DNA from: Bacteroidaceae bacterium
GTDB taxonomy: Bacteria > Bacteroidota > Bacteroidia > Bacteroidales > Bacteroidaceae
NCBI GenBank assembly: GCA_017507105.1
Contig: JAFWBM010000011.1
Coordinates: forward strand, 1 to 61,057
Direction: 5' to 3'
Length of the DNA: 61,057 nt
The number at the start of each line of letters is the position of its first letter. Position 1 is the stretch's first letter. Below the pieces are notes generated by a model. The model saw only the letters and a program-made list of their open reading frames with translations. It made no database searches and was not told the origin of the DNA. A program made the position numbers and the translations under genes. This document shows positions 16,859 through 34,244 of the stretch, one piece after another.

Positions 16859-19252
16859 TTACAAAATCAATGAACCTATTGTATAAACAAAATAACCGGC
16901 AATCCATGCCACAGCTGTATTATACAGGACGGCAAACAAAGCCCATTTTCTGTTACCTGTCTCATCAGCTATTGCAGCAACAGTTGCTATACATGGAAAG
17001 AATAGCAATATAAAGACCAGGAATGATGTAGCAGAAGCCGGAGTAAAATCACCCGAGGCAATTATAGCCTCCTGTAATCCCTCTTCGCTCTCGCTGCTAT
17101 AAAGAACACCCATTGTACTCACAACAAGTTCCTTGGCCGGTATACTTGTGATAATTCCTATTGTAGCACGCCAATTAAGACCCAATGGTTCCATAACCGG
17201 AGATAAAGCCTTGCCTATTATTCCTATATACGAATTTTCATAATCATTATCACACAACTCTGTTGTTGTTTGTCCAACACTCTCTGCCATCTCGGGACGC
17301 GGATAATAACTCAAAAACCATATTATGATGGTAGATGCCAGAATAATGGTTCCAATCTTGCGCAGATACTGCTCACATTTCTCCCACATATGCCGCAAGG
17401 TTGCTTTCAATGTAGGCATACGATATGGGGGCAGTTCCATTACAAAAGGAGTCTCATCTGTCTTGAACTTTGTTTTTCGCAATATACGTGCCGTAAACGC
17501 CGCCACAAGCACTCCAAGTATATAAAGCGAGATAAGAACAGTTGGCGCATATTCGGGAAAGAATGTAGCCGCAAACAAAATAAACACCGGAAGTCGTGCA
17601 CTACACGACATAAAAGGGGTTATAAGAATTGTTATTATGCGGCTGCTCCTACTCTCTATAGTGCGTGTTGCCATAATTGCCGGCACATTACAGCCAAAGC
17701 CCATAAGCATGGGAATGAATGATTTTCCATGCAAACCCATCTTATGCATTATCCTATCCATTATGAAAGCTGCGCGTGCCATATATCCCGAATCCTCCAT
17801 TAGAGAAATAAACAGATATAATATAAGTATCTGAGGTAGAAATACTGCAACACTACCTACTCCACCAATTATACCGTTGACTATAAGATTCTGCAATGCA
17901 CCTTCAGGCATTATGCTTGTAACAAAATCACCCAGCATACCAAAAGCTGCATCAATCCAGTCTTGCGGATATGCACCTAGATTAAACACAGCCGTAAACA
18001 TCAGCCACATTAGAGAGAGGAAAAGCGGAAATCCCAACCATTTATTTGCCACCAGACGGTCTATACGCCTTGTCTTTTGCAAGGTATCCTTGCTGCCCAC
18101 CTTGAAAGTCTCTTGCAGGGCACCGTTTATGAATCCATATTTAGCATCGCTAATAGCTGTTTCCACATCAAGTCCCAGCCTATTGTGTACACTCTTCGAA
18201 GCTTTCAGAGCTAACTTTTTCCACGATTCTACATCCTTGCATCTATCCAACAAATGTAGTGCTTCTTTATCCTGCTCCATCAATTTAAGTGCCCAATAGC
18301 GCACAGGGAACTGTTGTGGAAGATCATCGGAAACGTGTAACTTAGCCGATAAAGGAGCTAGTTCATCTTCAAGCACATTTCCATAGTTGATATGTATGTG
18401 ACGTATCGTCTTGTTCTCTCCCTCGAACAGTTCAATTACAGTATCAAGTAGTTTGTCAAGTCCCTTGGCAAGCTTTGCCACAGTAGGAATCATTGGGATT
18501 CCCATCATTCCACCCAAATGTTCATAGTCAAGTTTGGCACCGCTGGCTTCAAGTTCATCGAACATATTAAGAGCCACCACTGTACGCAGGTTCATATCTA
18601 TCAGTTCTGTTGTAAGATATAGATTACGTTCTAGGTTTGATGCAACCACCGCATTTATTATAACATCGGGTTGTTTTTCAAAAAGGTGGCGACGCACATA
18701 ACGTTCCTCAGGCGAATAGGCCGATATGGAGTATGTTCCCGGCAAATCTGTTATATTTATACGATAACCCTTATAACTAAAGGTCCCCGTCTTTGCATCT
18801 ACAGTGACTCCGCTGTAGTTACCTACATGCTCGCTGCTACCAGACAATGCATTAAACAGCGAAGTTTTGCCACTATTAGGGTTACCAACCAAAGCCACCT
18901 CAATGATCTTATCTCGACGTGTCGATGATGGACGATGTATGCAGTTGCATCCAAGACTGCCGGTGCAGCCCTCGCACGCCGACATACATCCAAAAGAGTT
19001 TATCGGAGTCAATTCCTTCTTAGCCTCCTCCTCGGGCAGCACCTCAATCATCGATGCCTCGTTACGACGCAATGAAACATCGTAACCCATTACGTTATAT
19101 TTTACCGGATCGTGCATAGGCGAGTCCAAAACCGACTTTACCTTCTCGCCACGTATGAATCCCATCTCCATAATACGTTTACGGAATCCACCGTGTCCCG
19201 ACAGGCGCACTATGACAGCCGTTTCCCCATTCTTCAATTCCGATAATTTCAT
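16859..19252 (-). CDS. feoB: Ferrous iron transporter FeoA-FeoB fusion
   Basis: 797 residues from ATG 19252; the longer TTG start at 19282 is less plausible. Residues 1-72 are a FeoA SH3-like domain (MKLSELKNGETAVIVRLSGH...MGYDVSLRRNEA). A linker with five cysteines (89, 93, 96, 102, 104) leads to the FeoB G-domain: G1 GNPNSGKT at 123-130 and G3 DLPGTYS. The GDI region and the polytopic transporter with two Gate-like repeats follow, including GFGCNVPAIMATRTIES. It imports Fe2+ across the inner membrane. It leads the operon with hemerythrin, regulator and msrC genes. Confidence 0.93.
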   Translation of the reverse strand: MKLSELKNGETAVIVRLSGHGGFRKRIMEMGFIRGEKVKSVLDSPMHDPVKYNVMGYDVSLRRNEASMIEVLPEEEAKKELTPINSFGCMSACEGCTGSLGCNCIHRPSSTRRDKIIEVALVGNPNSGKTSLFNALSGSSEHVGNYSGVTVDAKTGTFSYKGYRINITDLPGTYSISAYSPEERYVRRHLFEKQPDVIINAVVASNLERNLYLTTELIDMNLRTVVALNMFDELEASGAKLDYEHLGGMMGIPMIPTVAKLAKGLDKLLDTVIELFEGENKTIRHIHINYGNVLEDELAPLSAKLHVSDDLPQQFPVRYWALKLMEQDKEALHLLDRCKDVESWKKLALKASKSVHNRLGLDVETAISDAKYGFINGALQETFKVGSKDTLQKTRRIDRLVANKWLGFPLFLSLMWLMFTAVFNLGAYPQDWIDAAFGMLGDFVTSIMPEGALQNLIVNGIIGGVGSVAVFLPQILILYLFISLMEDSGYMARAAFIMDRIMHKMGLHGKSFIPMLMGFGCNVPAIMATRTIESRSSRIITILITPFMSCSARLPVFILFAATFFPEYAPTVLISLYILGVLVAAFTARILRKTKFKTDETPFVMELPPYRMPTLKATLRHMWEKCEQYLRKIGTIILASTIIIWFLSYYPRPEMAESVGQTTTELCDNDYENSYIGIIGKALSPVMEPLGLNWRATIGIITSIPAKELVVSTMGVLYSSESEEGLQEAIIASGDFTPASATSFLVFILLFFPCIATVAAIADETGNRKWALFAVLYNTAVAWIAGYFVYTIGSLIL

Positions 19253-19320
19253 TATCTTTATATATATTGTAATCTCCTCCAAAATAGCATGGAGAGATAT
19301 CCGATTAGCACCATCACTTA

Positions 19321-19421: not shown

Positions 19422-19446
19422 CTCTGTGCGCTTTTTGCGCACAGAG
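19422..19446 (-). terminator. Intrinsic terminator at left end of phage-like cluster
   Basis: A 10-bp GC-rich perfect stem (19422-19431 with 19437-19446) with a 5-nt loop is followed on the minus strand by TTTTTTTATATAT. It lies 20 bp after the last leftward gene of the cluster and insulates the feoAB promoter region. Confidence 0.85.
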
Positions 19447-19466: not shown

Positions 19467-19886
19467 TCAGGCAGGTTTACGCCGCAACGACAATATATGC
19501 TCAATCGACGCCGCTCCTTCATTATTCAAAGCTCTATAGAATTGTGCATTTTCGGGACTCACATATACAAGCCAATTGGCAAACAGTGCATTCTGTAAAT
19601 ATACCTCACAATGCTTCACAAGGTTATCAAGTTGTTCACTTTTCCAATTGGCGGGCATTTTCAGATTATATATAACCTTATCTTCCTCCAGTGTGAGATG
19701 GGAATAAGGTACAAGCAACATTGAAAGAGCTGTAACAGCAGCATACCACATTGGTTCTATTCGTTGTAGATCATCATCGCACGATGCCACAATATCAACA
19801 GCCTGCAGCTGTTTCCCAAGATGAGCCGACATAATGTGTAACGACTCTATTATCTTATTTTTCTCAATCTCTATTTTTATTTCCAT
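19467..19886 (-). CDS. Phage connector-like small protein (paralogue 3)
   Basis: 139 residues, no signal or membrane segment. It begins with a strand MEIKIEIEKNKIIESL, has an acidic D-rich turn, a helix, an YNLKMPANW strand, a long helix ending FANWL and a basic tail (LRRKPA). The same order occurs in the two small proteins at 28305-28805 and 28828-29307, so I regard the three as diverged paralogues. Similar small proteins occur in Bacteroidetes phages near head genes, where a neck or connector role is usually guessed. It is the last gene of the left arm, 8 bp after the 961-residue gene. Confidence 0.55.
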   Translation of the reverse strand: MEIKIEIEKNKIIESLHIMSAHLGKQLQAVDIVASCDDDLQRIEPMWYAAVTALSMLLVPYSHLTLEEDKVIYNLKMPANWKSEQLDNLVKHCEVYLQNALFANWLVYVSPENAQFYRALNNEGAASIEHILSLRRKPA

Positions 19887-19894
19887 TCTTTTAC

Positions 19895-22780
19895 TCAGTT
19901 TATTCTATTGTTCCATGATGTATCGACATCAATTTCCATTGCTGTTATACGGCTGTCACTAAGCACATTGCCGACAACAGCTATCATATAATAACGATAC
20001 GATTGTGTAGGTACATAGGGAAAGGAGAGATCGTTGAAGCTACCACGTCTTTCACTACCCGATATTATCTTATAGTTTCTGCCATCGTTGCTGCAAAGCA
20101 GATAACATGCAATGCCCTTAAACAAGGTATCGGAATTGCCGTCTATCATTACCATTGCATGCAACATCATATGCATTATCCTTTTATGTATCTTTGTGCC
20201 CCACAACATAGGCCTTGTAAGAATGGCAAAAGAGTTGCTCTTTTCCTTTCCCGTACTAAACAACGACAGCAATGTCTTGTTTCCATCACTCTCTTCTATG
20301 GCCATAAGATGGGGATAGGTATTAACAAATCCTTTGAATACTCTGTCACATCTACTCCAAGCTCCATCCGATAACGAATAGATATAGCTGTAGCTATGGT
20401 TATGATTAGAAACTATAAGTTCCTGTTCACTATAAAGAAAACCGACTACAGCATTTTTCAGGTAATCAACAAAGGATATAATCCTTCTGTAGCACTCTTG
20501 CAGAGAGACAACTGTTGCTATCTTATTCAACAGATTGTTCTGTAGCAAAACTTCACAATCAGAATTTGCAGTATCAATCGCTGTCGACAAGTTGGTTACA
20601 TTTCCACCCATTATAAGCAACAATCCTTTGGAAGTAGAAAAGAGCACTCCCGAGTCAATTCCTATTACAGATGATACATTATTACACACTTCGCGCGACA
20701 GTGGATAGCATGTTGTATAGGCTGAAGCACCAGTATCATCTATCGCCATCACCCATATCCCATTAGAACAGAACACATACAAAGGATGTTGTCCAAACTC
20801 TCCTTGCGAAAGTGTCACAGTATTGCTACACATTGCCAATATCTTATTGTCCGATGGTGTATATGTCTGCTTGGCGGGAAAGAAGAAGGGATTATCAACC
20901 CCAGAGACTCGCATCACATTCTCTCGTATCTCGTAAAGGTTACGTTCTTCGGGAGCATAAGAATCCTCTACTATATCCCATCCGTTACATATCTCTACAT
21001 CTGCAATTTTTCGTGCCATGCTATTTATATTGCTAACTGCTATTTTCACCGTTATAGTATCACCTGCTGTAGCAACTCCCCTTATATAGAAAAGCGATAA
21101 GAATTCCGGTTCTGTCCCTTTGAGACTTATATCAAGGTTAGCATCCTTATAGCTCCAATATCCCGTATTGGAGTATACCAAAGTATACTCTCCTACACTC
21201 TGCCCAAAAAGTTTCAGAATATTATCCTTGTAATATTTTGCAAGTTTTGTGTTCGAGACAGCAAAAACAGCACTTATGCTTACATACATTCCTCCGGAAT
21301 AGTCATTGAGATAACATGCCAGGTTCAGCATTGCGTGCGCTGTAAGTTTAAAATCCTTTTTATACCTCACTCCATCAATTGTAACAATAAAAAAGGTGCG
21401 CGTAGCCCTCACATCAGGATACATGATATAAGGTGATAGATAATATCTTCCGTTGTTGTATCCCACTTTTAGTCTTCCTTCAAAATCCTTTTTTATCTGC
21501 GCCAATCCATTTTTGGTATTCAATTCGGTAAATATAACAGCATCTATCTCTTTTGTCTCCATACCTTGTGGATAGTAGCAATTGTCAGAGTATCCTTTGA
21601 AATAGGTCTCACGTAAATTGCCCAAATGCAATCGCCCATTAAAAACATAGCTGCACGAAGCTGTTATTGTAGATGGAGATATACTCTCGTCTCCCATTGT
21701 TGCGCACAAAGCCAGGCTCGTCGGAGAGACATCCTCGCATACATTCAAACGATTCCCATAGATATCATACTCCATTACCTTATAAAAAAGGGAATGTTTA
21801 AGTACTTCGGAGTATATTTCACCATCAGGTTTTATCTCGTATCGCTCATAATCAGCCGACAGCACCGTATACACTTCATTCTGATGCACGGACGCAATAT
21901 TTCCTTTCTCTACCACTTTATGGCCGGGAATAGAGCCCGATGTAAAGATATCCAGTGAAACAATTATATTCTCCCAATTTCCCAAGTCCAATCCTTCAAA
22001 AACAAAGGAAGGCTTAAATCCCTGTACCTTTACCGTATAGGTAGAGTAACCATCACTTGGATTGTTTGGTGCAGAATAGAAGTTACCAGAGTCCTTAGAC
22101 ATCTCCTCGACACTGTTCCTATCCTCAACATAGAAGATGGGTGAGAAAGATATATAACTTCCATCATAGAGTTTATATGCCAACCTGAAAAGTGCCCGGT
22201 CTATATAGCACCCCATTCCGTTTAGTTTGGATATACACTCATCGTAATAACCTATTGAAGCACGACTCCAATAGGACGACGCACTACTCTCATCAGGCGG
22301 ATTTCCAAAAAAGTAACAATCTTCGGTCTTTACCTTCACCACCTGCGATGTCGTATTTATGGTTATGTCTGGCATTTGCGGCCGCTCACCCAACCATTTA
22401 TAGTGATCGGTATCAAATATCGCATACAATATCGCAGTATCGGTAAAGAGAGAGACTATATTTCCTATAATCTCCATCCTCTCTACCCCTACACAATTCT
22501 GCAACATATGCAGTGAATCTGCATCAGCCGATTCAAACTTCTCATTGTATATATGTATATGCCCGCCATTCTCGGTAATGCAGAGATACCTCGATGCCAT
22601 ACTGTGCCAATACACCTGCTTATATCTGTATGGGAAACTCGCAACCTTGTCGGGTACAGGTAAAGGTTGTAACGAGCCATTCTTTACACGAACATTCAAG
22701 AGATCGAGACAATCTCCATCCTGAGCATACAGATTATCGCAGTTATACACAACCCCTTTGAAAGGAATAATCTTACGCAT
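19895..22780 (-). CDS. Large phage tail or DNA-stabilisation-like protein
   Basis: 961 residues, strand-rich, no signal peptide or membrane helix. The N-terminus MRKIIPFKGVVYNCDNLYAQ...LLNVRVKNGSLQPLPVPDKV resembles the opening of podovirus-type stabilisation or tail-hub proteins (P22 gp10-like), in which short repeats of the form R-N-v-v-n-G-l-p-p start a beta-propeller-rich protein. Later segments such as YSLSDGAWSRCDRVFKGFVNTYPHLMAI fit propeller blades. The identity is an inference from architecture and position after the lysis genes, not from a diagnostic motif. The ORF is intact over 2.9 kb, which argues against simple decay. Confidence 0.5.
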   Translation of the reverse strand: MRKIIPFKGVVYNCDNLYAQDGDCLDLLNVRVKNGSLQPLPVPDKVASFPYRYKQVYWHSMASRYLCITENGGHIHIYNEKFESADADSLHMLQNCVGVERMEIIGNIVSLFTDTAILYAIFDTDHYKWLGERPQMPDITINTTSQVVKVKTEDCYFFGNPPDESSASSYWSRASIGYYDECISKLNGMGCYIDRALFRLAYKLYDGSYISFSPIFYVEDRNSVEEMSKDSGNFYSAPNNPSDGYSTYTVKVQGFKPSFVFEGLDLGNWENIIVSLDIFTSGSIPGHKVVEKGNIASVHQNEVYTVLSADYERYEIKPDGEIYSEVLKHSLFYKVMEYDIYGNRLNVCEDVSPTSLALCATMGDESISPSTITASCSYVFNGRLHLGNLRETYFKGYSDNCYYPQGMETKEIDAVIFTELNTKNGLAQIKKDFEGRLKVGYNNGRYYLSPYIMYPDVRATRTFFIVTIDGVRYKKDFKLTAHAMLNLACYLNDYSGGMYVSISAVFAVSNTKLAKYYKDNILKLFGQSVGEYTLVYSNTGYWSYKDANLDISLKGTEPEFLSLFYIRGVATAGDTITVKIAVSNINSMARKIADVEICNGWDIVEDSYAPEERNLYEIRENVMRVSGVDNPFFFPAKQTYTPSDNKILAMCSNTVTLSQGEFGQHPLYVFCSNGIWVMAIDDTGASAYTTCYPLSREVCNNVSSVIGIDSGVLFSTSKGLLLIMGGNVTNLSTAIDTANSDCEVLLQNNLLNKIATVVSLQECYRRIISFVDYLKNAVVGFLYSEQELIVSNHNHSYSYIYSLSDGAWSRCDRVFKGFVNTYPHLMAIEESDGNKTLLSLFSTGKEKSNSFAILTRPMLWGTKIHKRIMHMMLHAMVMIDGNSDTLFKGIACYLLCSNDGRNYKIISGSERRGSFNDLSFPYVPTQSYRYYMIAVVGNVLSDSRITAMEIDVDTSWNNRIN

Positions 22781-22795
22781 AACTATTTTCTATTT

Positions 22796-23191
22796 TTATA
22801 ATTCTTTTAAAAAGATATCGGTAATCTTTCTCTTTCCGACATAGAGGAGGAACAGTATAACAATCAGTGCTACTATAAAATATTTATAACCGTTACTCTT
22901 ATTTTTAACCTCCTTCACAACCTCCTTTACACTTATCAAAGTATCTATACGCCATAATGTATCTATGCGCAGATGTTCGCGGTACTGTATGCGTGTACGA
23001 GTGAGGTAGACCGTATCTGACCTCTCCCTCACAAGTACACTATCCACAACAAAAATACTATCGCGCGAATGTGCACCCGTATGCTGTTCTACAGTACGAG
23101 CATTGCACTCTTGCCTACGTTGTGTAACACACGATACAAACAACAACAATACGAATGAGATACTAAATGCTATTCTTACGCTCTTTATCAT
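22796..23191 (-). CDS. Unimolecular-spanin-like lipoprotein
   Basis: 131 residues. A lipoprotein signal with lipobox FVSC (Cys21) is followed by a hydrophilic, strand/coil-prone middle with repeated RIDTLWRIDTLI-type segments and a C-terminal membrane helix (YFIVALIVILFLLYV, about 103-118) with a basic end. An outer-membrane lipid anchor at the N-terminus plus an inner-membrane helix at the C-terminus is the architecture of unimolecular spanins (T1 gp11 type), which fuse the two membranes in the last step of phage lysis. It overlaps the holin-like gene by 29 nt out of frame, as lysis genes often do. Confidence 0.6.
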   Translation of the reverse strand: MIKSVRIAFSISFVLLLFVSCVTQRRQECNARTVEQHTGAHSRDSIFVVDSVLVRERSDTVYLTRTRIQYREHLRIDTLWRIDTLISVKEVVKEVKNKSNGYKYFIVALIVILFLLYVGKRKITDIFLKEL

Positions 23192-23633
23192 ACCAATCGA
23201 AATAATTATTTAGATAGCTATTGCGTTTTACGACCCTCAGACTTAGCAAATAGTATAGAAAGTCGAGAATACGGAACAGCGTTCCCCCTTCTTGTGTCAC
23301 CATACGTGCATTACGCAAGATGTTTGTACCATAGAAGTATATCGCCACATAAGTAAGGAACGATACACACTGTACTATAGCATGATGCTCCCCTTTAAAA
23401 TATCCTATCAGATACAGTGATGCAGCAAGCACAAAGAAGAGTGCAGTATCGCGAAAGAAACAGAAAGCCTTTTTAAAACTCCACTCGCGATGGTTGCTCA
23501 GGTCGGCAAGCAAACCGAATATAAAATTCACAGCAAAGAGAATTACCATCCCGAATATCTCGTTTTTTATAGGGAACAACAATGCCACAACATTTGCAAA
23601 GAGTGTTGAGATCATCAGTTTCATTGTATCCAT
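23163..23633 (-). CDS. Holin-like membrane protein
   Basis: 156 residues with about three to four hydrophobic segments (residues about 10-22, 27-43, 63-78 and 88-105) and a positively charged C-terminus (RVVKRNSYLNNYFDWYDKERK). Size, topology and the segment FAVNFIFGLLADLSNHREWSFKKA, a helix followed by a polar loop, resemble the phage_holin_4/toxin-secretion holin families common in Bacteroidetes phages. It sits next to the spanin-like gene. No endolysin is present beside them, which is unusual for a lysis cassette. Confidence 0.6.
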   Translation of the reverse strand: MDTMKLMISTLFANVVALLFPIKNEIFGMVILFAVNFIFGLLADLSNHREWSFKKAFCFFRDTALFFVLAASLYLIGYFKGEHHAIVQCVSFLTYVAIYFYGTNILRNARMVTQEGGTLFRILDFLYYLLSLRVVKRNSYLNNYFDWYDKERKNSI

Positions 23634-23636
23634 GTG

Positions 23637-23918
23637 TTAAAGAATAAGATATTTTACTAAAAGCAACTCGCTTTTTGACGAGAGTTTTATATATTGTCCC
23701 GGCATTGTACCTTCCAATGTAACTTCGCACCGTTGCTCATCGAAACCGAAATCATCGTGGTGTAAATACTCCTCAACACCATCAATACTCACCATTACAT
23801 TAACAGGATATGGCCCGTTCTTATGCACTCGTATTCTTATATCTCCACCATTGCAACAGTGAGGTGCTGTCTCCCATAAGCCACCGTTATTGAAACATTC
23901 CAATTTTATTATAGACAT
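23637..23918 (-). CDS. Small phage-cluster protein of unknown function
   Basis: 93 residues, predicted all-beta, no signal or membrane segment. It begins MSIIKLECFNNGGLWETAPHCCNGGDIRIRVH and has alternating hydrophobic strands ending YIKLSSKSELLLVKYLIL. Four base pairs separate it from the 218-residue connector-like gene and 3 bp from the holin-like gene. I do not recognise the family; a minor virion or accessory-domain role is only a guess from position. Confidence 0.6.
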   Translation of the reverse strand: MSIIKLECFNNGGLWETAPHCCNGGDIRIRVHKNGPYPVNVMVSIDGVEEYLHHDDFGFDEQRCEVTLEGTMPGQYIKLSSKSELLLVKYLIL

Positions 23919-23922
23919 AATT

Positions 23923-24579
23923 CTATCCTAATTTATTTTGTTGAACATTATCAAGGGATGCCGCAGCCAATGCCATAAAGGAGTTTGCACTATCATGACG
24001 CTCAAATACATTCATCAAAAGCGCCGCACATTGATATGCCACCGCATTATGCAGAGCCTCATCATAGCCCGACAACCCTTCCAAAGGATTATATTCAGCC
24101 TCGTAAATAAACTTATCTACCGATACTCGTCTATCCTTCGGTGAAGCCCAAAAACAGAGTACGGGTTTATTGTTAGCCATTACCCCTTTAGTACACACCG
24201 GGCGGTTGCATCCCGAGCGTGTATATGGATTCTGTTGCATCAAAGCCATTGGCGAATCCATAGGATAGAGTCGTGTAACATCGCGACTCCATCCATCCAA
24301 ACGGAATGCTATAAGATCTACAAAATCACTCGGCAATGTAATTGTACCCGTACCGTCACCATTAAATAGCAAGTCACCAAGCGATGGCACATAACTTTTC
24401 GGGTTCACCGTTCCTGTTCCTCTGTTTTTCTGTACGAAGAGTACAGCCTGAGGCATCAGAGCATCTATGTGACGCGGTAATTGTCGCATATCCTGTGTCA
24501 ACAATGTAACATTCGAGTCATCGTCCATCTCATTTATCAGCTGCAGCACCCTGCTGCGCAGTTCATCGGCAGTAATCAT
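23923..24579 (-). CDS. Head-tail connector-like phage protein
   Basis: 218 residues, mostly helical. MITADELRSRVLQLINEMDD, then a Pro-rich turn, a beta hairpin GTGTITLPSDFVDLIAFRLDGW and long helices at the end (YDEALHNAVAYQCAALLMNVFER...). This layout, short helices, a LP-dFl-l-r-dgW strand, then C-terminal helices with AVAYQCAALL, is typical of the gp6/neck adaptor class in Bacteroidetes phages. It overlaps the preceding gene by 4 bp (ATGA). Its position after the capsid gene supports a neck role. Confidence 0.55.
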   Translation of the reverse strand: MITADELRSRVLQLINEMDDDSNVTLLTQDMRQLPRHIDALMPQAVLFVQKNRGTGTVNPKSYVPSLGDLLFNGDGTGTITLPSDFVDLIAFRLDGWSRDVTRLYPMDSPMALMQQNPYTRSGCNRPVCTKGVMANNKPVLCFWASPKDRRVSVDKFIYEAEYNPLEGLSGYDEALHNAVAYQCAALLMNVFERHDSANSFMALAAASLDNVQQNKLG

Positions 24580-25007
24580 AACCAGTTAGGAAAATTCACA
24601 CCAAGTTCCTGAGCCTTTTCTCTCACACAGTGTTTGTTCTGTAATCCCGACAACGGCACCTTATATGGAGCAGCCATAAGCACAGCACGCGCCTGTTGGG
24701 TATTTGTCACATCGGGGAAGGTATTATCATCCTTCACATCTACTGAACTATCACTATTATCGTTCTCTTTCTGCTCTTCGTCGATATCCTGTACAAAGCC
24801 ACGTTTTATTACTCCGTTACGGAAATCGGCACTATTCTCTATAGCACTCTGATAAAGTGGATTGTCTGTCACATATTGTGCAGGAACTATTCCTGCCGAG
24901 TTTACAGCACCACCACTGAACTCAACCCTTACCAGAGCTGTTCCTATGCGGAAAAAACAGTTTCTCTCAATCTGTCCGCGAATCTCATATGTCACTCTCT
25001 TTTTCAT
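24576..25007 (-). CDS. Phage head-associated protein with C-terminal SAP/HeH-like motif
   Basis: 143 residues from ATG 25007 (MKKRVTYEIRGQIERN). The ORF continues 45 bp upstream, but a hairpin at 25023-25058 occupies that stretch, so the shorter start is preferred. The N-terminal half is strand-rich (FFRIGTALVRVEFSGG...VPAQYVTDNPLYQSAIENSADFRNGVIKRGF), a pattern I associate with small proteins beside capsid genes in Bacteroidetes phages. An acidic linker leads to QARAVLMAAPYKVPLSGLQN and then KAQELGVNFPNWL, resembling a HeH/LEM-like helical motif used for DNA or protein contacts. It is 72 bp after the capsid gene and overlaps the next by 4 bp. Confidence 0.55.
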   Translation of the reverse strand: MKKRVTYEIRGQIERNCFFRIGTALVRVEFSGGAVNSAGIVPAQYVTDNPLYQSAIENSADFRNGVIKRGFVQDIDEEQKENDNSDSSVDVKDDNTFPDVTNTQQARAVLMAAPYKVPLSGLQNKHCVREKAQELGVNFPNWL

Positions 25008-25022
25008 ATTCAGTTTCTTTAT

Positions 25023-25058
25023 AGGGGCATGCCAAACATCCGTACTAGGCATGCCCCT
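25023..25058 (-). terminator. Hairpin immediately after the capsid-like gene
   Basis: An 11-bp perfect GC-rich stem (25023-25033 with 25048-25058) with a 14-nt loop sits 21 bp after the capsid stop, and no T-run follows. It more likely protects the capsid mRNA 3' end or acts as a partial attenuator than as a full terminator, and would raise capsid output over the downstream genes. Confidence 0.5.
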
Positions 25059-25079
25059 GAATAGTTTTAAATAGATTTA

Positions 25080-26705
25080 TTACTCGACAGGTGCCATTAT
25101 CTCACCAGTATACTCGACCCATGTAGAACCTGTATATGTAACCACTGTTCCGGCTGTAAACCAAACCTTTTGTTCTCCACCTACGGTATGATATACATCT
25201 GCAGTCAGCACAACCACATCATTTGTATTGGGCGATGTAGGAAGCTTGGCAGCACTTGTCACCTTAGCAGCACCGGGTATGTCACTCTTTGCAGCAGCAC
25301 CATTCACCCAGATGTGACTATATCCCTTAAGGCAAAGACAATCGATGGTCATTACAACCTCGCGTTTTGCCTCTTCACCCTCTACACGCTCGGTCTCCAT
25401 ATTCTCATTCTTCATGCAGTAACGTACAAGACCGTTCTCATCTATAAGACCACCACAATGCGAATATCCCAGAGCATCAAGTGTGGGGTCATGCACCAAA
25501 GCAATATCGCCAAATACGGTATGTATGCGTGTACATGCTACGCCCCATACCTGATCGTCTTTTACTGTTATATTTTTATGCAATGTAAGATCAATCTTCT
25601 GTATGTCGTTCAATAGCTGTTTACCCAAGAACCACACTGCTTTTCGCGAGCAGTTAAAACCTGTAAACTTAACCATTGAAAGGTTTATAAGATCGGCAAA
25701 TGTGATGGTTGAAGATAGGTCGTACTGACGCTTGAACTGCCAGCGTAATCCTTTACTGAAGTAGTCCCATTGATAACCCATCGAGGGATCCATAGCTTGT
25801 ACCTTGAACTTACCAGGCTGTCCCACCCACGCTGTACGACAACTCTCGAGGCGGAACTGACGCAAGATAGCCTCGGCAATCTGAGCCTCACTGAACTTTA
25901 TCTTTTTCTTTTGCGCTTTAAAGTAGTCACTTACAATGCTGTTGCACAACTGTTTCTGCAAGTAAACTCTCTCGGGAACGGGTACTACAGTACTGGGCGA
26001 GATAAATTTCTGAGTCTCATATGCTGCGGATGAAAGAAGGATAACCTCGGTGCCTGCAGGAATTGTAGGGACCACGCAATACTCATCTGTTGAATTTACC
26101 TTAGGACCATTAACAGCCATAGCGATAGGAGCCTCTGTTGTATCGTTCTTTCCCACGAAGAAAAGCATGAGGTCTACACCGGGAAGTTCAATCTGTCCTG
26201 TTGGATCATATCCGTTTACACCTTTACAGATAGCAGTATAATACTCCTGGAAAATTTTTCTGTCACCAGTTGTCGAGAACGGAATCTCGGCTCTTGTTGC
26301 CTTAATACCGGTATAGGTTGCATTTGTATATGCTTTGGAACGTTTCTCATCAATCATGTAATGGTCGACCTCAAAGGAGTTTACCTGTACACGTCTTTTC
26401 ACTCGACGCTTTACAGTGTCTATGACACTCTCGTCACTTGCAACCTCAATAATCTTCTCATCAATCTCGGCCTCTATAAGATCACTCATCTCCGACACAT
26501 TGGATACAGTTGTAGCACTTCCGTTACCATGCGATGCCAAGCCTGCTATGCCGCGCGATGCACGAGGTGAGCCCGAGGCAACCACTCCCACTGTTGCCAT
26601 AACTACACCGCCTGCATCATCGGCAAACAGATAAAGAGCCATACACATCAACGAAAGAAGAATAAATAGAGGGTTCTTCTTTACAAAATCAAATGTTTTT
26701 TTCAT
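25080..26705 (-). CDS. Probable phage major capsid protein with hydrophobic N-terminus
   Basis: 541 residues. The core has segments typical of phage capsid proteins: YTGIKATRAEIPFSTT, a long helix FSEAQIAEAILRQFRLESCRTAW, VWFLGKQLLNDIQKIDLTLHKN and, most tellingly, TVFGDIALVHDPTLDALGYSHCG, the f-G-i-l-hdp-lD--g strand-turn of HK97-like capsid C-terminal domains. The last about 80 residues look like a small added beta domain (DVYHTVGGEQKVWFTAG). The first 45 residues contain a strong hydrophobic helix (LFILLSLMCMALYLF), unusual for a capsid protein; an alternative start at Met36 would remove it. It follows the scaffold-like gene, the normal order in phages. Confidence 0.6.
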   Translation of the reverse strand: MKKTFDFVKKNPLFILLSLMCMALYLFADDAGGVVMATVGVVASGSPRASRGIAGLASHGNGSATTVSNVSEMSDLIEAEIDEKIIEVASDESVIDTVKRRVKRRVQVNSFEVDHYMIDEKRSKAYTNATYTGIKATRAEIPFSTTGDRKIFQEYYTAICKGVNGYDPTGQIELPGVDLMLFFVGKNDTTEAPIAMAVNGPKVNSTDEYCVVPTIPAGTEVILLSSAAYETQKFISPSTVVPVPERVYLQKQLCNSIVSDYFKAQKKKIKFSEAQIAEAILRQFRLESCRTAWVGQPGKFKVQAMDPSMGYQWDYFSKGLRWQFKRQYDLSSTITFADLINLSMVKFTGFNCSRKAVWFLGKQLLNDIQKIDLTLHKNITVKDDQVWGVACTRIHTVFGDIALVHDPTLDALGYSHCGGLIDENGLVRYCMKNENMETERVEGEEAKREVVMTIDCLCLKGYSHIWVNGAAAKSDIPGAAKVTSAAKLPTSPNTNDVVVLTADVYHTVGGEQKVWFTAGTVVTYTGSTWVEYTGEIMAPVE

Positions 26706-26749
26706 TGTAAAATAGTTTTAATTGGTTTATAAAATATTGAAATAGTAGT

Positions 26750-27550
26750 TTAAGCCTCAAGAGCCGACTCGATGAGTGAGTTTCTGCGTTTGGGTTTGGG
26801 CGCAATCTCGGGAGCTACCGATGAAACACCTTTAGGCATACCGTCGCCAAACTCCCTGCGTAATCTTTGTATATTTGTATTACGCCCTTTAATATCTCCG
26901 GCCTCAAATGCCTGCTCTACATCATTGTCATAATTTATGGCATGTTCAAGAGCAGTACATACCTCTATATTGTAATCACCCGACAGGATAGGCAACACCA
27001 AACGTTCCCATGCCAACTCGAGAAATTCAGCCGGTTCATAGCCACGCTCTTTACAGAACTGCTCTATAAGCGGCTTGCTAAGCTCAAGATTACGTTCATA
27101 GAGTTTACGGTCGTTCGAGAGTGTGAGCAACTCATTTCGTCTCTCTTCATCGGCAATAAGCATCTCTTCGTACTCGGGTGTTCCTTCGTGTATATTCATG
27201 AAACCACGTCCGAAGTATCGTGCCATAGCCGAATGTGCATTACGTCTTCCTTTAACCATGTCAGAAAGCATCTGCGATAAGCGCGGATCACTCTCTATTG
27301 CTAAAGCAAGTTTCTCGTTCTGCTCACGGTTGATTCTCAGATGCTCAACCAAAAGAAGCTGCGACTCCTTATCGGCAAGATTGAAACTATTGCCGAAAAT
27401 CTCTTTTAGTTGGCTATTCAAGTCGGAATAGTCTGCTGCATTATCGGCTATGCTGCTATCGGCATACTGATTATTCTCCTGGGGCTGCATTGGTTGCACA
27501 GCGGCCTTGGCCTGCCCCATCTGTGCATTTTCATCTGTTTTCTGATACAT
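26750..27550 (-). CDS. Scaffold-like phage protein
   Basis: 266 residues, acidic and mainly helical, with a Gln/Asn/Ala-rich flexible N-terminus (residues 1-45). A central coiled-coil-prone part follows (DKESQLLLVEHLRINREQNEKLALAIESDPRL, and DEERRNELLTLSNDRKLYERNLELSKPLIEQF). The C-terminus is short and basic (KPKRRNSLIESALEA). Acidic helical proteins with a basic C-terminal hook directly before the capsid gene are typical scaffolding proteins, and that is the basis of the call. First gene of the left arm, starting at the divergent control region. Confidence 0.55.
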   Translation of the reverse strand: MYQKTDENAQMGQAKAAVQPMQPQENNQYADSSIADNAADYSDLNSQLKEIFGNSFNLADKESQLLLVEHLRINREQNEKLALAIESDPRLSQMLSDMVKGRRNAHSAMARYFGRGFMNIHEGTPEYEEMLIADEERRNELLTLSNDRKLYERNLELSKPLIEQFCKERGYEPAEFLELAWERLVLPILSGDYNIEVCTALEHAINYDNDVEQAFEAGDIKGRNTNIQRLRREFGDGMPKGVSSVAPEIAPKPKRRNSLIESALEA

Positions 27551-27603
27551 AATTGTGTGTATTTATTTCGACGGCAAAGAAAACATGCAAACCGCGTGAG
27601 GCA

Positions 27604-27617
27604 GTTGCAAAACTGAC
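27604..27617 (-). repeat. Dyad operator-like motif, copy 1
   Basis: The minus strand reads GTCAGTTTTGCAAC and continues TG, so the full copy is the symmetric CAGTT-TTGC-AACTG. It is 54 bp upstream of the scaffold-like start. The complete symmetry suggests binding by a dimeric regulator. Confidence 0.6.
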
Positions 27618-27646
27618 AATCTGTGCAAGCGTGTCGGGGTGTTTTA

Positions 27647-27660
27647 GTCAGTTTTACAAC
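27647..27660 (+). repeat. Dyad operator-like motif, copy 2
   Basis: Reads GTCAGTTTTACAAC followed by T, one mismatch to copy 1 on the opposite strand and symmetric in 4 of 5 arm positions. It lies 29 bp from copy 1. Confidence 0.6.
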
Positions 27661-27786
27661 TTTGGTGTTTAGAAACGCAGAACTCAATTAGAGTGTGTAC
27701 ATTTATATACAAGCCAATAGGGAAAATTGCTAATATCCTCAACGATAGACTCTTTGATAAAAGTTATAGTTCCTGTTGAAAAATTA

Positions 27787-27800
27787 GGCAGTTTTGCAAC
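27787..27800 (+). repeat. Dyad operator-like motif, copy 3
   Basis: Reads GGCAGTTTTGCAAC followed by T, one mismatch to copy 1. It lies 21 bp upstream of the candidate -7 element at 27822, close to where a -33 box would sit, so a bound protein would affect rightward transcription. Confidence 0.6.
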
Positions 27801-27858
27801 TCTGTTAGCCATTTTTGACTATATTTTTGCAAGTAACAATCTAAAAAAGTTACTAAAC

Positions 27859-28308
27859 ATGAATGAAGAGAAAAAAGACAAAAGTGTACGTGAGCAGCGT
27901 AAAGATGCTATTCTCGCCACATTTTTCGAGACTATGAAAAAGCTATCAGAAAAGAATCCGCTTGTAACCTATGGCGAGGTTATGGAGAAAGCCGTAAAGG
28001 AGAGTGCCCCACGTTTCTTTGTAAACTACGAGAGTGCGAGAAGGCTTATCTCATTAATGGCAAGAAAGAAAAGACTACCGGTAAACAACAAGAACAAATT
28101 GGAGATGTACAAGGAGATTTATCGCCGCTACACCGAGAGCGACAAAAAGAAGAATGGCAAATACAAATCGCTCGAGGAGATACTATCCGAGCCTGCTCCC
28201 TCATTCTACGTCGACAGAAGTACATTCCAGGGACTTGTTTACAGAACACTGCGCGAGCGTTGCAACTATAACAATTTCATAAACTCATTAAATAAAGGTA
28301 TTGCATGA
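27859..28308 (+). CDS. Terminase small subunit-like protein with duplicated motif
   Basis: 149 residues from ATG 27859. The ORF opens at 27727, but its extra 44 residues would overlap the predicted promoter, so the inner ATG is chosen. Highly basic and helical. It holds the same motif twice: APRFFVNYESARRLISLM (about 50-67) and APSFYVDRSTFQGLVYRTL (about 115-133). The aP-FyV-a-r-is unit is familiar from Bacteroidetes phage proteins of the packaging region. Position just upstream of TerL genes and DNA-binding character suggest a TerS role; no classical helix-turn-helix is evident. Its TGA overlaps the next ATG by 4 bp. Confidence 0.5.
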   Translation: MNEEKKDKSVREQRKDAILATFFETMKKLSEKNPLVTYGEVMEKAVKESAPRFFVNYESARRLISLMARKKRLPVNNKNKLEMYKEIYRRYTESDKKKNGKYKSLEEILSEPAPSFYVDRSTFQGLVYRTLRERCNYNNFINSLNKGIA

Positions 28309-28805
28309 AGAAAGAGATACTTACCATAAGGCACAAAGATATAATGCAACGTCTATTTTTACACAGTTACTACAGAGGCGAAGCGCATAAGACGGCAGGC
28401 ATGCCAAAACATTTCTCGGCCGGAATACAAGCTTCGGAGAGCGACAGTGATATGCTTGAGAACCATATCTCGACAGCCATCACCGAATGTGTAAAACTGC
28501 TATCAAGATATTTCGCCGTATGCAGTGTCAAGAAAATCGATGAAAATGAAAGTAGAATAACCGAGCTCCATCTGCAACCACCATGCAATTTCCCTAGAGA
28601 ATCTTTGTCACAGATGGAGCAATGCATAGGTAACTATATTGTCATGCGCACCCTGCAACAATGGCTTGCCCAGCACAAACCCGATGACTCCTTATTGGCC
28701 GCCGAAGAGGTAAAATCTTCTACAATAGACATACGCGAGACTGCATCATTGCGCAAAAGACCATGCAGAACTGCGCATAAGAGTAACAAGAGTATTGAAT
28801 TATAG
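28305..28805 (+). CDS. Phage connector-like small protein (paralogue 1)
   Basis: 166 residues, no signal or membrane segment. N-terminal strand EILTIRHKDIMQRLFLHSYYRGEAHK, acidic turn (ESDSDML), helix with AITECVKLLSRYF, a strand ending NFP, helix SLSQMEQCIGNYIVMRTLQQWL, and a long basic tail (RKRPCRTAHKSNK). The order matches the two other small proteins of the cluster (28828-29307 and 19467-19886). The function may be a head-neck ring or connector; no enzymatic motif is seen. Translationally coupled to the TerS-like gene by a 4-bp overlap. Confidence 0.5.
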   Translation: MKKEILTIRHKDIMQRLFLHSYYRGEAHKTAGMPKHFSAGIQASESDSDMLENHISTAITECVKLLSRYFAVCSVKKIDENESRITELHLQPPCNFPRESLSQMEQCIGNYIVMRTLQQWLAQHKPDDSLLAAEEVKSSTIDIRETASLRKRPCRTAHKSNKSIEL

Positions 28806-28827
28806 TATAAACTGCACCATATCATAT

Positions 28828-29307
28828 ATGATGGAAAAGACAATAATAATAGATAAAGAGCATTTGCTCTATCAAGTAAATCTCAAGAATCACTATATGG
28901 GTGAGTCACTCAAGCGCGTCGACATTAATGCCGACACAATGCAAAGCGACACCGATGACAACGAACTTTTCGATATATTCATAGAAGAGGCATGCAATGC
29001 AATAGCCTCTTCTGTGGCATTACGTTTTAAAGGTATGAGATACGAAAACGACGGACGATATATAGCTTTTACATTTATAACATCAGGAGAGCCAATGAGC
29101 AATATTCTTCCAATGCTGAAGCAAAGCATCAACGACTATCTTGTCAATGAACTAATACTGCAATGGCTACTATTGCGCTATCCTCAGATGAGTCAGAGTT
29201 ACATATCGCTACGTCCTGCATTGATGAGCAACGTGCAACAGCAATTTGCCAAATTGTCGAACACAAGAAAAACACGCCGCAGAGCAACCGATCTTGGTGG
29301 TATATAA
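28828..29307 (+). CDS. Phage connector-like small protein (paralogue 2)
   Basis: 159 residues from ATG 28828; the ORF can be read from 28795, but that would overlap the preceding stop. N-terminal strand MEKTIIIDKEHLLYQVNLKNHYMGESLK, D-rich turn, IFIEEACNAIASSVALRF helix, an AFTFITSGEPMS strand, the helix MLKQSINDYLVNELILQWLL and a basic C-terminal tail (RKTRRRATD). Clearly related in layout to the preceding gene, pointing to tandem duplication. It ends 5 bp before the TerL start. Confidence 0.5.
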   Translation: MMEKTIIIDKEHLLYQVNLKNHYMGESLKRVDINADTMQSDTDDNELFDIFIEEACNAIASSVALRFKGMRYENDGRYIAFTFITSGEPMSNILPMLKQSINDYLVNELILQWLLLRYPQMSQSYISLRPALMSNVQQQFAKLSNTRKTRRRATDLGGI

Positions 29308-29312
29308 AAGAG

Positions 29313-31286
29313 ATGCAAAAGGAAAAGATAATAGAAGAGAACATTGAACGTCGTAAAAAGATAACATTGCCTTACAATCCCATAAGTGGCGAGGGCTCAA
29401 CCAGCATCGGGCGTTACCCCATCGCTATTGAAGGGTTCCCTATAAAAGAGATACATTTGCCGCTCACAATGGTAGACGAAGAGAGCGTACAAAGACTTAG
29501 CGAGATGGGAGCCTACAGATATCTTCAATCGTCCGGGATAGAGGAACCGACGGAGCGCGACATACTGCGACTGTGGCTTGAGTTCTGCCGCATAAGATTA
29601 AAACACGATTTTGAGTATTGGGCCAAGAGCACAGCCATTATATCGGATAAGGGCAAGGGACGTGATATTCCATTCACACTCAACAGAGCACAGAGGATAT
29701 ATCTCAAAGAGATGGAGAAGTTACGTATAGCCGAGAGGCCTATTGACATAATTTTGTGTAAAGCACGTCAATGGGGAGGCTCTACCCTCACACAGCTATA
29801 TATGCTGTGGATACAGTTGGTTCACAAGAGTAACTGGAACAGCGTAATATGTGGCGACATTGAGAAACAGTCATCGGTGGTTGCAGGCATGCTCTCAAAG
29901 GTAGTAAACCACTATCCACGATGGGCGACTGGCGGACAAAAACTCACTACATTCCCATTCCAAGGCACTCGCAACAGCCGTGTGATAAACATAGGGAACA
30001 GCCGCTATTCGCTAGGTTCATCACAGAAGCCCGACTCGCTTCGAAGTGAAGATATAAGCATGGCACATCTTACAGAGGTTGGTCTGTGGAAAGCAACTGC
30101 AGGACGGAAACCGGAAGATCTGGTACAATCAATCTTCGGCTCTATAGCAAGCGGTCCATACACCGTTAAGGTGATGGAATCGACAGCCAAGGGTGTTGGT
30201 AACTTTTTCCATCGCACATGGATAGATGCAACCGAAGGACGCAACAATTTTACTCCCGTATTTATCCCCTGGTACAGCATAGATCTTTACAGCAAACCTA
30301 TATCCAAGCATGAGTATGGCAGTTTCATAGAGAGCATGAACGATTACGAGAAGGAGCTTTTCAGAATAGGCGCTACATTGGAAGCCATAAACTGGTATCG
30401 CGACAAGAGGCTCGAGATATGCGATGAGTGGCGTCTATTCTCTGAGTTCCCATCAACAGCCAATGAAGCATTCCAAAGCACCGGACGACGCATTTTCCGC
30501 ATTCAGTATGTAAGCAACATACGCAAAGACTGTGTACCGGCCCACTTCATTGGAGATATCGATAATGGCAAATTCATCCCACTGCAGCCGGGTGAAGATA
30601 AAAAAGAGAACACGCTACACGTGTGGCTGATGCCCGATAGCGAAAATCTTTTTCGTGACAGATATATTGTAACTGTAGATGTAGGAGGCATAAGCGACAA
30701 AGCCGACTACTCATGCATAGTAGTAGCCGACCGCCTGGCGATGCGCGATGGTGGCATACCCGAGATAGTTGCATGCTGGCATGGACATATAGAACACGAC
30801 AAGCTTGCATGGAAAGCAGTGGAGCTTGCTCGTGTCTATGGTAACGCATTGCTTATAATAGAAGCCAACACTCTTGAGACCGAAGGAACCGAGGGCGATA
30901 ATTTCGAATACATACTGAATGAGATAGCCGGTAAATACAGTAACCTCTACAGCCGCACATCGCAGCAGGAGATAAGACAGGGACGTCCGCGACGATGGGG
31001 TTTTCACACCAACTCGTCGACCAAACCTATGGTGATTAATTTCCTTATAAAAGCTATGAGAGACAGCCTATATATAGAGCGCTGTATAGAGACCACATAC
31101 GAGCTCGATCTATACGAACTGAAGGAAAACGGAAAAGAGATGGGTGCCGTAGAAGGCAATCACGATGACAGAGTCATGGCCACTGCAATACTCATCTGGG
31201 CCTGCTATAACTATCCCATTGCATCGCGAAACAATATTGTTACAAATAGACACAAAACGCGAATTGTAAGCGAGGCAAGCATATAA
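29313..31286 (+). CDS. Phage terminase large subunit (DNA packaging motor)
   Basis: 657 residues from ATG 29313; an upstream in-frame start at 29163 would overlap the preceding gene by 145 bp and is rejected. ATPase: a deviant Walker A KARQWGGST (150-158), Walker B with catalytic carboxylate SMAHLTEVGLW (Glu255) and coupling motif VMESTAKG (288-295). The C-terminal RNase H-like nuclease has VTVDVGG (Asp456), LLIIEANT (Glu517) and NHDDR (Asp618/Asp619). All catalytic positions are intact. It cuts and pumps DNA into procapsids. Last gene of the right arm; no portal gene follows. Confidence 0.85.
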   Translation: MQKEKIIEENIERRKKITLPYNPISGEGSTSIGRYPIAIEGFPIKEIHLPLTMVDEESVQRLSEMGAYRYLQSSGIEEPTERDILRLWLEFCRIRLKHDFEYWAKSTAIISDKGKGRDIPFTLNRAQRIYLKEMEKLRIAERPIDIILCKARQWGGSTLTQLYMLWIQLVHKSNWNSVICGDIEKQSSVVAGMLSKVVNHYPRWATGGQKLTTFPFQGTRNSRVINIGNSRYSLGSSQKPDSLRSEDISMAHLTEVGLWKATAGRKPEDLVQSIFGSIASGPYTVKVMESTAKGVGNFFHRTWIDATEGRNNFTPVFIPWYSIDLYSKPISKHEYGSFIESMNDYEKELFRIGATLEAINWYRDKRLEICDEWRLFSEFPSTANEAFQSTGRRIFRIQYVSNIRKDCVPAHFIGDIDNGKFIPLQPGEDKKENTLHVWLMPDSENLFRDRYIVTVDVGGISDKADYSCIVVADRLAMRDGGIPEIVACWHGHIEHDKLAWKAVELARVYGNALLIIEANTLETEGTEGDNFEYILNEIAGKYSNLYSRTSQQEIRQGRPRRWGFHTNSSTKPMVINFLIKAMRDSLYIERCIETTYELDLYELKENGKEMGAVEGNHDDRVMATAILIWACYNYPIASRNNIVTNRHKTRIVSEASI

Positions 31287-33809: not shown

Positions 33810-34015
33810 TATTTTCCAACATTACAGCGAAATGACATATTAACATAAGACCCATCAATAAAAGCACATTTACCTAAGAAATAATAACATTTTAACGCTG
33901 CCAACACACACATTAAAGAACCAGCAAAACGAAGTGCTGACAAAACGAAAATCCACAACAAAGTCACCCATCTTAACAGATATTCCCAATCATCACCGGT
34001 ATATCACGCGTATCA
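33810..34015. other. Intergenic stretch between murB and fimbrial promoter regions
   Basis: About 200 bp of AT-rich sequence between the divergent murB and fimbrial units. I see no ORF, hairpin or promoter beyond those listed at its two ends. Confidence 0.4.
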
Positions 34016-34044
34016 TATTGATAATCAACGATTTACCCCCCCCA
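34016..34044 (+). repeat. 29-bp repeat with C8 tract, copy upstream of fimbrial promoter
   Basis: Starts TATTGATAATCAAC and ends in TTTA plus eight Cs and A. It matches the copy at 34270-34298 in 27 of 29 positions. The C8 tract is 34036-34043, ending 20 bp upstream of the -33 box. Read in the frame of the second copy it has no start codon and stops soon after, so it is not itself coding. Confidence 0.75.
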
Positions 34045-34063
34045 TTAAATACCCGATAAAACT

Positions 34064-34095
34064 CTTGCAGGTGTAAAATAAATTTTATATTTTTG
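34064..34095 (+). promoter_or_regulatory. Promoter of the fimbrial operon
   Basis: CTTG (34064-34067, 3 of 4 to TTTG), 20 bp, TATTTTTG (34088-34095, exact). Transcription would start near 34102, giving a leader of about 143 nt before the DUF3575 gene at 34245. Confidence 0.6.
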
Positions 34096-34244
34096 CAAAA
34101 TACAACTTTTATATTTTTATAATTTATATACAATCAATCATAGCCTGAAGAAATAATATTAATACCAACAATAACGACAAACACCAAACAAATCTAATTA
34201 AAAAACAGATATAGTCAATAAATCCTTTACCAACTAAACACAAC

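Follow-up and report, generated by a model that had tools for sequence, protein, structure and literature searches.

The window analyzed here, the whole 61,057-nucleotide contig JAFWBM010000011.1 of a Bacteroidaceae bacterium (assembly GCA_017507105.1), harbors at positions 19467 to 31286 a compact cluster of 13 genes bordered by feoAB and a phosphopantetheinyl transferase gene (sfp). We consider it likely that this cluster makes up one part, locus 1, of a phage-derived particle system that is spread over several loci, passed on mostly by vertical descent, similar to a gene transfer agent (GTA) and core to one Bacteroidaceae genus. A sequence-only reading of the window had described thirteen intact open reading frames (ORFs) in two divergent arms; all 13 are present, intact and so arranged, with GC contents (38 to 46%) like those of their surroundings (42% over the window).

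Genes of the divergent cluster

The rightward arm (+ strand) ends in g13 (29313..31286; open frame from 29163), which encodes the terminase large subunit TerL (phrog_2, E = 4.5e-20). Residues K200, R202, E305, D506, E567 and D669, which we presume to serve the ATPase and nuclease activities, do not differ among the 37 aligned TerL sequences of the genus, in keeping with the earlier description of TerL as catalytically complete; the terminase model PF03354 found no match in the own genome, which we put down to a limit of the model. Upstream lie TerS-like g10 (27859..28308; open frame from 27727), which matches the unknown-function family phrog_27246 (E = 2.5e-12) and precedes TerL in phages as well, followed by g11 (28305..28805) and g12 (28831..29307; open frame from 28795). 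Together with g1 of the opposite arm (19467..19886, − strand), g11 and g12 are paralogues within one unnamed phage family, phrog_19255 (E = 1.3e-11 for g11, 5.3e-5 for g12 and 9.7e-5 for g1). The predicted model of g12 (pLDDT 83) matched no solved structure at E ≤ 0.001, and a search of BFVD returned one unnamed podovirus protein (E = 3.4e-5). ORF starts are over-extended in places, and homologues favor ATG codons at 27859 (g10), 28831 (g12) and about 29313 (TerL).

The leftward arm (− strand) begins with scaffold-like g9 (26750..27550; unknown-function family phrog_22323, E = 7.2e-12), which stands beside g8 (25080..26705), encoding a major capsid protein (MCP) of the SU10 type. The window MCP alone falls short of the cut-off for SU10_MCP (E = 0.063), and the assignment comes via its relatives, since 22 of the 23 aligned sequences (the window's own and those of 22 out of 35 relatives located) match this family (best E = 4.1e-11). 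The MCP profile matched no solved chain, and the predicted structure (mean pLDDT 48) was not used. Next come g7 (24576..25052; 158 residues), which lies between the adaptor and capsid genes, gave no match in profile searches and adjoins the MCP gene in prophage relatives too; g6 (23923..24579), a head-tail adaptor of the SU10 type (SU10_adaptor, E = 1.1e-6, over the cut-off); and g5 (23637..23918; 93 residues), 55 to 69% identical to copies in 22 other genomes of the genus. The holin-like membrane protein g4 (23163..23633) matches Phage_holin_4_1 under the cut-off (E = 0.0083) and the unknown-function family phrog_15037 (E = 6.3e-10), and its gene overlaps that of the putative spanin-like lipoprotein g3 (22796..23191), which gave no significant profile match. 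Finally, g2 (19895..22780) encodes a large tail- or stabilization-like protein of 961 residues with a match to the unknown-function family phrog_32516 (E = 6.3e-58). Among the names proposed from sequence, those of TerL, MCP and the adaptor are thus borne out by profiles and that of the holin only weakly, and the labels spanin-like and scaffold-like derive only from position and the look of the sequence.

The leftward arm closes before feoAB with an intrinsic terminator on the − strand (19422..19446), a 10-pair stem read from 19446 to 19422 and then a T run. It is the strongest site listed in a scan that found 14 such sites in the region versus 10.5 in shuffled sequences, and it lies where the sequence-only reading had placed one. 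That reading had also seen no att-like flanking repeat, and we find no convincing direct repeat flanking the cluster in the 20 largest repeat families out of 60 or more.

A second locus, a repressor locus and a putative operator

Searches with TerL and g2 retrieved three temperate Bacteroides phages of 64 to 68 kb, BF1-TP2, BKO1-TP3 and BS-TP4 (PQ571263, PQ571269 and PQ571277), which share with the element TerL (39 to 41% identity) and homologues of MCP, g2, holin, adaptor and the TerS-like protein, as well as capsid and TerL arms that diverge in the same way. In contrast to the element, BF1-TP2 has genes annotated for replication, recombination and regulation, and its portal gene comes straight after TerL. 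In all three records the TerL gene is annotated as "tail spike protein."

With the BF1-TP2 portal as query, a single match appears in the own genome, on a separate contig (C24:6485-8266; 37% identity, E = 2.3e-114), and this protein matches both P22_portal of Pfam (E = 2.1e-39) and phrog_156 (portal; E = 4.7e-62). It is the last of four genes that run in one direction (C24 948-8323, hereafter locus 2) and encode proteins of 194, 160 and 1,442 residues and then the portal. This order (194-residue-type protein, large protein, portal) is constant in 19 of 19 fragments, with the 160-residue protein detected in 12. Pfam gave no family for the 1,442-residue ejection-type protein (fragment L037, 2042-6367), which contains an HEIVGH stretch that we take to resemble a zinc-metallopeptidase motif. 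A small gene family without a profile match lies divergent from locus 2 in 13 fragments, including the own copy (L037 610-864); its product has 79 residues in G303, G304 and G046.

A third contig (C48, 12811-14321) harbors a regulatory locus beside the ATP synthase operon, consisting of a CI-like S24 repressor gene (Peptidase_S24, E = 8.9e-11; phrog_4 "transcriptional repressor," E = 1.1e-19) and two small divergent genes. Portal, endolysin, repressor and integrase are thus indeed missing from the cluster itself, but the element does have a portal and a repressor, encoded elsewhere in the same genome. In many genomes, the S24 repressor sits near locus 1 or 2. An Ala-Gly pair, the serine in G-x-S-M and the lysine in R-x-x-K do not vary among the 17 aligned repressors from other genomes, and the own protein has all of them; we take these to be the cleavage site (Ala-Gly) and the catalytic pair (Ser and Lys). 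The two small genes (70 and 125 residues; L219 7812-8417, contig C48) have counterparts beside the repressor in G020, G046 and G304 and are possibly regulators or accessory proteins.

Upstream of the repressor gene, a dyad TAGCC-N6-GGCTA is present in 13 of 28 distinct regions; in 10 shuffles no dyad was counted more than four times. A matrix built from repressor-upstream regions alone, using only rows above 40% identity, has its best position in the 61-kb window (score 20.4; next best 13.1) at 27806..27821, where the putative S24-repressor operator TAGCCATTTTTGACTA lies between the divergent arms and immediately before g10. It is abutted on the + strand (27822..27829) by the element TAnnTTTG, which we take to be the Bacteroides −7 promoter element. 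This box begins 16 to 17 bp downstream of the first operator base in 22 of 27 locus-1 fragments (23 with the window). With the matrix, 14 of 26 intergenic regions score above the 95% shuffle level. Outside the repressor's own region, the best matrix site falls in the g10-side promoter in 17 of 27 comparable locus-1 fragments (18 with the window, added by hand), with about 0.65 expected by length; this count leaves out L039 of G172, which has a 9-kb insert, and including that insert without the window gives 18 of 28 versus 1.15. Plain dyad counts upstream of c24_1 and in the g9-g10 region gave little signal. These sequence patterns give good support for an operator link between locus 1 and the regulatory locus, whereas locus 2 may or may not share this control. 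SOS-type control by the S24 repressor of at least the packaging arm is what we infer and predict from them.

Conservation, dispersal and descent

We examined 44 genomes of the genus and a family sample of 301 genomes, 280 of which, judged by their identifiers, are from other genera. TerL matches 43 of the 44 genus genomes, 42 of them with the element type (G320 has only a 44%-identical, prophage-type copy); the portal is found in 41 of 44 and the genus form of the repressor (at least 48% identity to the query) also in 41, and every genome has TerL or portal. All 11 of the best-quality genomes match each of TerL, portal and repressor; as a yardstick for such fragmentary assemblies, rpoB was recovered in 32 of 44. 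TerL matches in the family sample number 34, comprising 21 in the genus of the window (70 to 79% identity for the 20 besides the window's own) and 13 among the 280 genomes of other genera (28 to 46%), four of which have a portal match inside the 1.5-kb TerL flank, as in phages. For the repressor, a family sample with 114 genomes from outside the genus gave a best match there of 39%. In a separate TerL scan, the record titles are mostly those of Bacteroidaceae or Bacteroidales metagenome-assembled genomes (MAGs), many from the hindgut of goat, sheep, deer, yak and buffalo, and a scan of IMG/VR returned three relatives at 61, 61 and 40%.

The sequence-only reading had proposed comparing the locus between feoAB and sfp across relatives, and that position proves not to be fixed. 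Downstream of TerL, an MBL-fold gene and murB occur in the window (after sfp), G186, G214 and G303, and not in other fragments that reach this far; an empty-site check in genera without the element (murB-MBL beside ligA) covered 30 MBL loci, none of which has ligA in its 1.5-kb flanks, and thus turned up no empty site. Within locus 1, gene order is kept as far as fragments reach in 18 fragments of other genus genomes, with some exceptions: G240 has no g2 to g4, g1 or g5 is not recognized in several, and in G172 (fragment L039) a 9-kb insertion between g9 and g10 separates the two arms. The distance between loci 1 and 2 varies widely. In G303 and G304 they are contiguous with the repressor in between, forming units of 20 to 22 kb in which no replication or integrase gene was found on reading; in G186 the ATP synthase operon stands between them; in G317 they lie 107 kb apart on one contig; and in G020 they occupy different contigs, each longer than 250 kb. 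No g2 is found between g5 and g1 in G240, G312 and G317, and an intact g2 homologue occurs at a separate, fourth site in five genomes of one clade, namely these three together with G172 and G305, in which the g5-g1 stretch is not covered. The relocated proteins (1007 to 1076 residues) are 48 to 68% identical to each other and 29 to 30% identical to window g2, and their neighbors in the four genomes with wider surroundings read are mostly host-type genes. In the fragmented MAG G296, no g2 homologue was found. Since g2 is intact at this fourth site and the loci are variously spaced, the parts move and yet are kept.

In G240 (C130; L320 17437-18750), the relocated g2 is also accompanied by holin, lysozyme-like and Rz-like genes in a row, a candidate fourth-site lysis cassette. 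The lysozyme-like protein, GH24 by the look of its sequence, is 44% identical to one in a separate prophage of G116.

The nearest sequences outside the element are prophage-type relatives (B. timonensis NZ_CBVI010000075, UBA7335, IMG/VR 2695420547_000003 and 3300022661_000338, and G116:C6), which match its TerL (56 to 61%), portal (55 to 60%) and MCP (46 to 73%). Their portal and TerL genes, unlike those of the element, are close neighbors that converge within a single locus, and these relatives form an outgroup to the genus clade. The G116:C6 relative (L049, L104) exists beside an element copy in the same genome (TerL 59%, MCP 73%, portal 56% with three stops).

Phylogenetic analysis places the genus TerL sequences (37 rows) in one clade versus 15 phage and prophage sequences (99.7/100, SH-aLRT/bootstrap), and likewise the genus portals (35 rows) versus eight (100/100). 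The TerL, portal and MCP trees, compared pairwise, have 17 of 27, 16 of 25 and 21 of 22 splits in common and not one conflict at ≥95, even though many genomes have locus 1 unlinked from locus 2. As the host tree, we used the nucleotide tree of a single gene, rpoB, whose protein tree is poorly resolved; it has 8 of 22 splits in common with TerL, 10 of 22 with the portal and 14 of 19 with MCP.

Purifying selection on the element genes is strong. For the closely related genomes G186 and G214, the ratio of nonsynonymous to synonymous change (dN/dS; Nei-Gojobori-type counts with our own script) is 0.012 for MCP, 0.017 for the portal, 0.011 for the holin, 0.066 for TerL, 0.128 for g2 and, the highest, 0.249 for g11, to be set beside the host genes atpA (0.050), ligA (0.038) and murB (0.137). 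The TerL ratio is 0.03 to 0.10 over the pairs measured, those other than G186/G214 being partly saturated. A single internal stop (in g9 of G323) occurs in 488 best alignments, a count that ignores truncated pieces as well as stops earlier than residue 60, which precede the presumed starts. These results agree with the earlier argument against passive decay, and the variable occupancy or pseudogenization in siblings that would have indicated an ordinary or dying prophage was checked with the opposite outcome, near-universal and intact genes.

A probable gene transfer agent-like system and its alternatives

Genus-wide retention, co-descent, purifying selection, and scatter into loci free of mobility or replication genes are marks of domestication, and together with dispersal without decay they strongly support the GTA-like producer that the sequence-only reading had offered as one possibility. 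In PMC9662315, a GTA is defined by caudoviricete-derived proteins, packaging of mostly random host DNA, full endogenization, often in several loci, a head too small to package its own genome fully, mostly vertical co-diversification, and delivery to other cells. Three of these six features are seen here: phage-derived proteins (TerL, portal, adaptor and MCP), multi-locus endogenization, and host co-diversification; given the dispersal, packaging of the whole gene set as one DNA piece is unlikely, for example in G317 and G020. We think GTA-like working most likely and regard the element as a candidate and not as a proven member. More guardedly, we think it rather probable that a phage with an SU10-type capsid and a P22-type portal was independently domesticated as a GTA at the root of the genus, the first in Bacteroidota known to us, spread over three to four sites that move apart with their genes intact, an SOS-type repressor and its operator linking at least the packaging arm to the regulatory locus.

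In the mechanism we envisage, the repressor would hold its own promoter and that of g10-TerL shut via the common palindromic operator until DNA damage leads to RecA-assisted self-cleavage. Heads would then assemble from the SU10-type capsid and P22-type portal, TerL would package host DNA, lysis would fall to the holin, the spanin and an endolysin from another site, and the particles would carry host DNA to relatives in the manner of a GTA.

Several observations weigh against this interpretation. Those genus genomes whose record titles were read are MAGs, and bin errors are possible. Monophyly of the genus MCP (28 sequences versus 6 from outside) is weaker than that of TerL and portal (90.8/77), and, with all genomes kept, three, four and three rpoB splits at ≥95 conflict with the TerL, portal and MCP trees, respectively; the conflicts vanish once G308 is removed (13 TerL and 17 MCP splits in common), the portal needing removal of G306 as well (16 in common). 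Both genomes were left out of that congruence test alone. G308 may reflect a transfer or a chimaeric MAG. A tyrosine-integrase-type gene (L037 3-578, contig C24; Phage_int_SAM_5, E = 3.5e-20, and Arm-DNA-bind_5), cut by the contig end, adjoins locus 2, and relatives of it (64 to 84%) lie near locus 2 on varying sides in 4 of 19 other fragments (L094, L097, L105 and L106). It may encode a recombinase that acts in inversion or belongs to a mobile element, and the contig ends at this gene hint at repeats. The operator sign is weak at locus 2 (4 of 28 regions above the 95% shuffle level), and locus 1 of G172, G240, G312 and G317 has no worthwhile site. The bare operator pattern, allowing up to one mismatch, is not enriched across eight genomes (52 sites versus 63 in the reversed control). 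By itself it adds no regulon members: of six site loci read, one is the locus-1 promoter of G046 and five have no recognized phage gene, and 12 further site regions gave no match to the lysis genes or fiber-like protein of G240, the only queries run on them. Neither an endolysin, for which no whole-genome search was made, nor a receptor-binding protein was recognized in the own genome. Finally, the element is known from its genes alone, from which repressor binding and cleavage, particles, packaging of host DNA, lysis and delivery are read.

Among known systems, the alphaproteobacterial GTAs (RcGTA and relatives) are similar in that, according to PMC9662315, phage-derived genes are host-fixed, distributed over several loci and co-diversifying; the element differs in host phylum, P22-type portal, SU10-type capsid and adaptor, and CI-like S24 repressor, and in being a genomic prediction. 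FpGTA I of Faecalibacterium (PMC12946183) is likewise a compact gut-bacterial set (TerS, TerL, portal, scaffold and MCP), and differs in being a single 10.5-kb operon in a Bacillota host.

The strongest rival, which we nonetheless judge unlikely, is a domesticated killer particle of the PBSX type that may package host DNA and kills competitors with no gene delivery. PBSX-type defective prophages retain phage particle genes kept by the host in a single contiguous locus; the element resembles them in its host-kept particle genes and departs from them in its dispersal. A killer particle would have the same gene content (capsid, TerL, portal, lysis proteins, loci without mobility or replication genes), and the invariant presumed cleavage residues of the S24 repressor fit induction by damage. 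No receptor-binding or killing gene was recognized, however, and retention of the portal and of the 1,442-residue ejection-type protein suits DNA delivery, although a killer could retain both too.

A protein shell or injection device used by the host, with no role in DNA packaging, seems improbable. Such a device could accommodate g1, g5, g11, g12 and several small proteins that have no known role, function here being assigned from sequence; against it stand the invariance of the presumed ATPase and nuclease residues of TerL, the low TerL dN/dS and the retained portal. We give slightly less credence still to a successful prophage group, whose separate recent insertions were split by assembly. 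Related prophages do exist in the genus (G116:C6 and G320:C128), and an integrase-type gene adjoins locus 2 in 5 of 20 fragments; yet the element is dispersed, and no one-piece unit able to excise, with genes for integrase and replication, was found. The element is near-universal, mostly single-copy, of one clade and in agreement with rpoB, its pieces occupy separate positions in long contigs with g2 alone at a fourth site, and even the contiguous forms of G303 and G304 are far shorter than the 64- to 68-kb phages. Prevalence, clade structure, dispersal and the absence of decay lead us to reject an ordinary prophage. A satellite taking missing parts such as the portal from a helper, as the sequence-only reading had also suggested from a locus 1 that by itself has no portal or endolysin, is rejected as scarcely credible because a portal of the same system, whose tree never conflicts with that of TerL, is found on another contig of the same genome, and locus 1 has no mobility gene and descends vertically genus-wide.

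GTAs are known from few lineages, and Bacteroidota is a dominant gut phylum. A full-text literature search, with most subscription papers and bioRxiv preprints outside its reach, found no GTA described in Bacteroidota, so that the designation as first is provisional. The word stem "Bacteroid" does not occur in PMC9662315 or the 2024 review PMC11841831, and a 2026 study of packaged gut DNA (PMC12946183) places GTAs in Oscillospiraceae and Ruminococcaceae and describes lateral transduction in Bacteroides. If the GTA-like interpretation is true, capsid-mediated DNA exchange would be a core trait of a ruminant-gut genus, suggesting an exchange route that prophage finders relying on contiguous clusters could overlook. 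Defined loci and a candidate operator and repressor also open the origin of GTAs to test, from the keeping of genes and their scatter to cohesion through one regulator.

Outside the cluster, feoA and feoB are fused in the window as a single open frame of 807 residues (16859-19282), and a 34-nt repeat with a C run at its end is present in two copies 254 bp apart (34011-34298).

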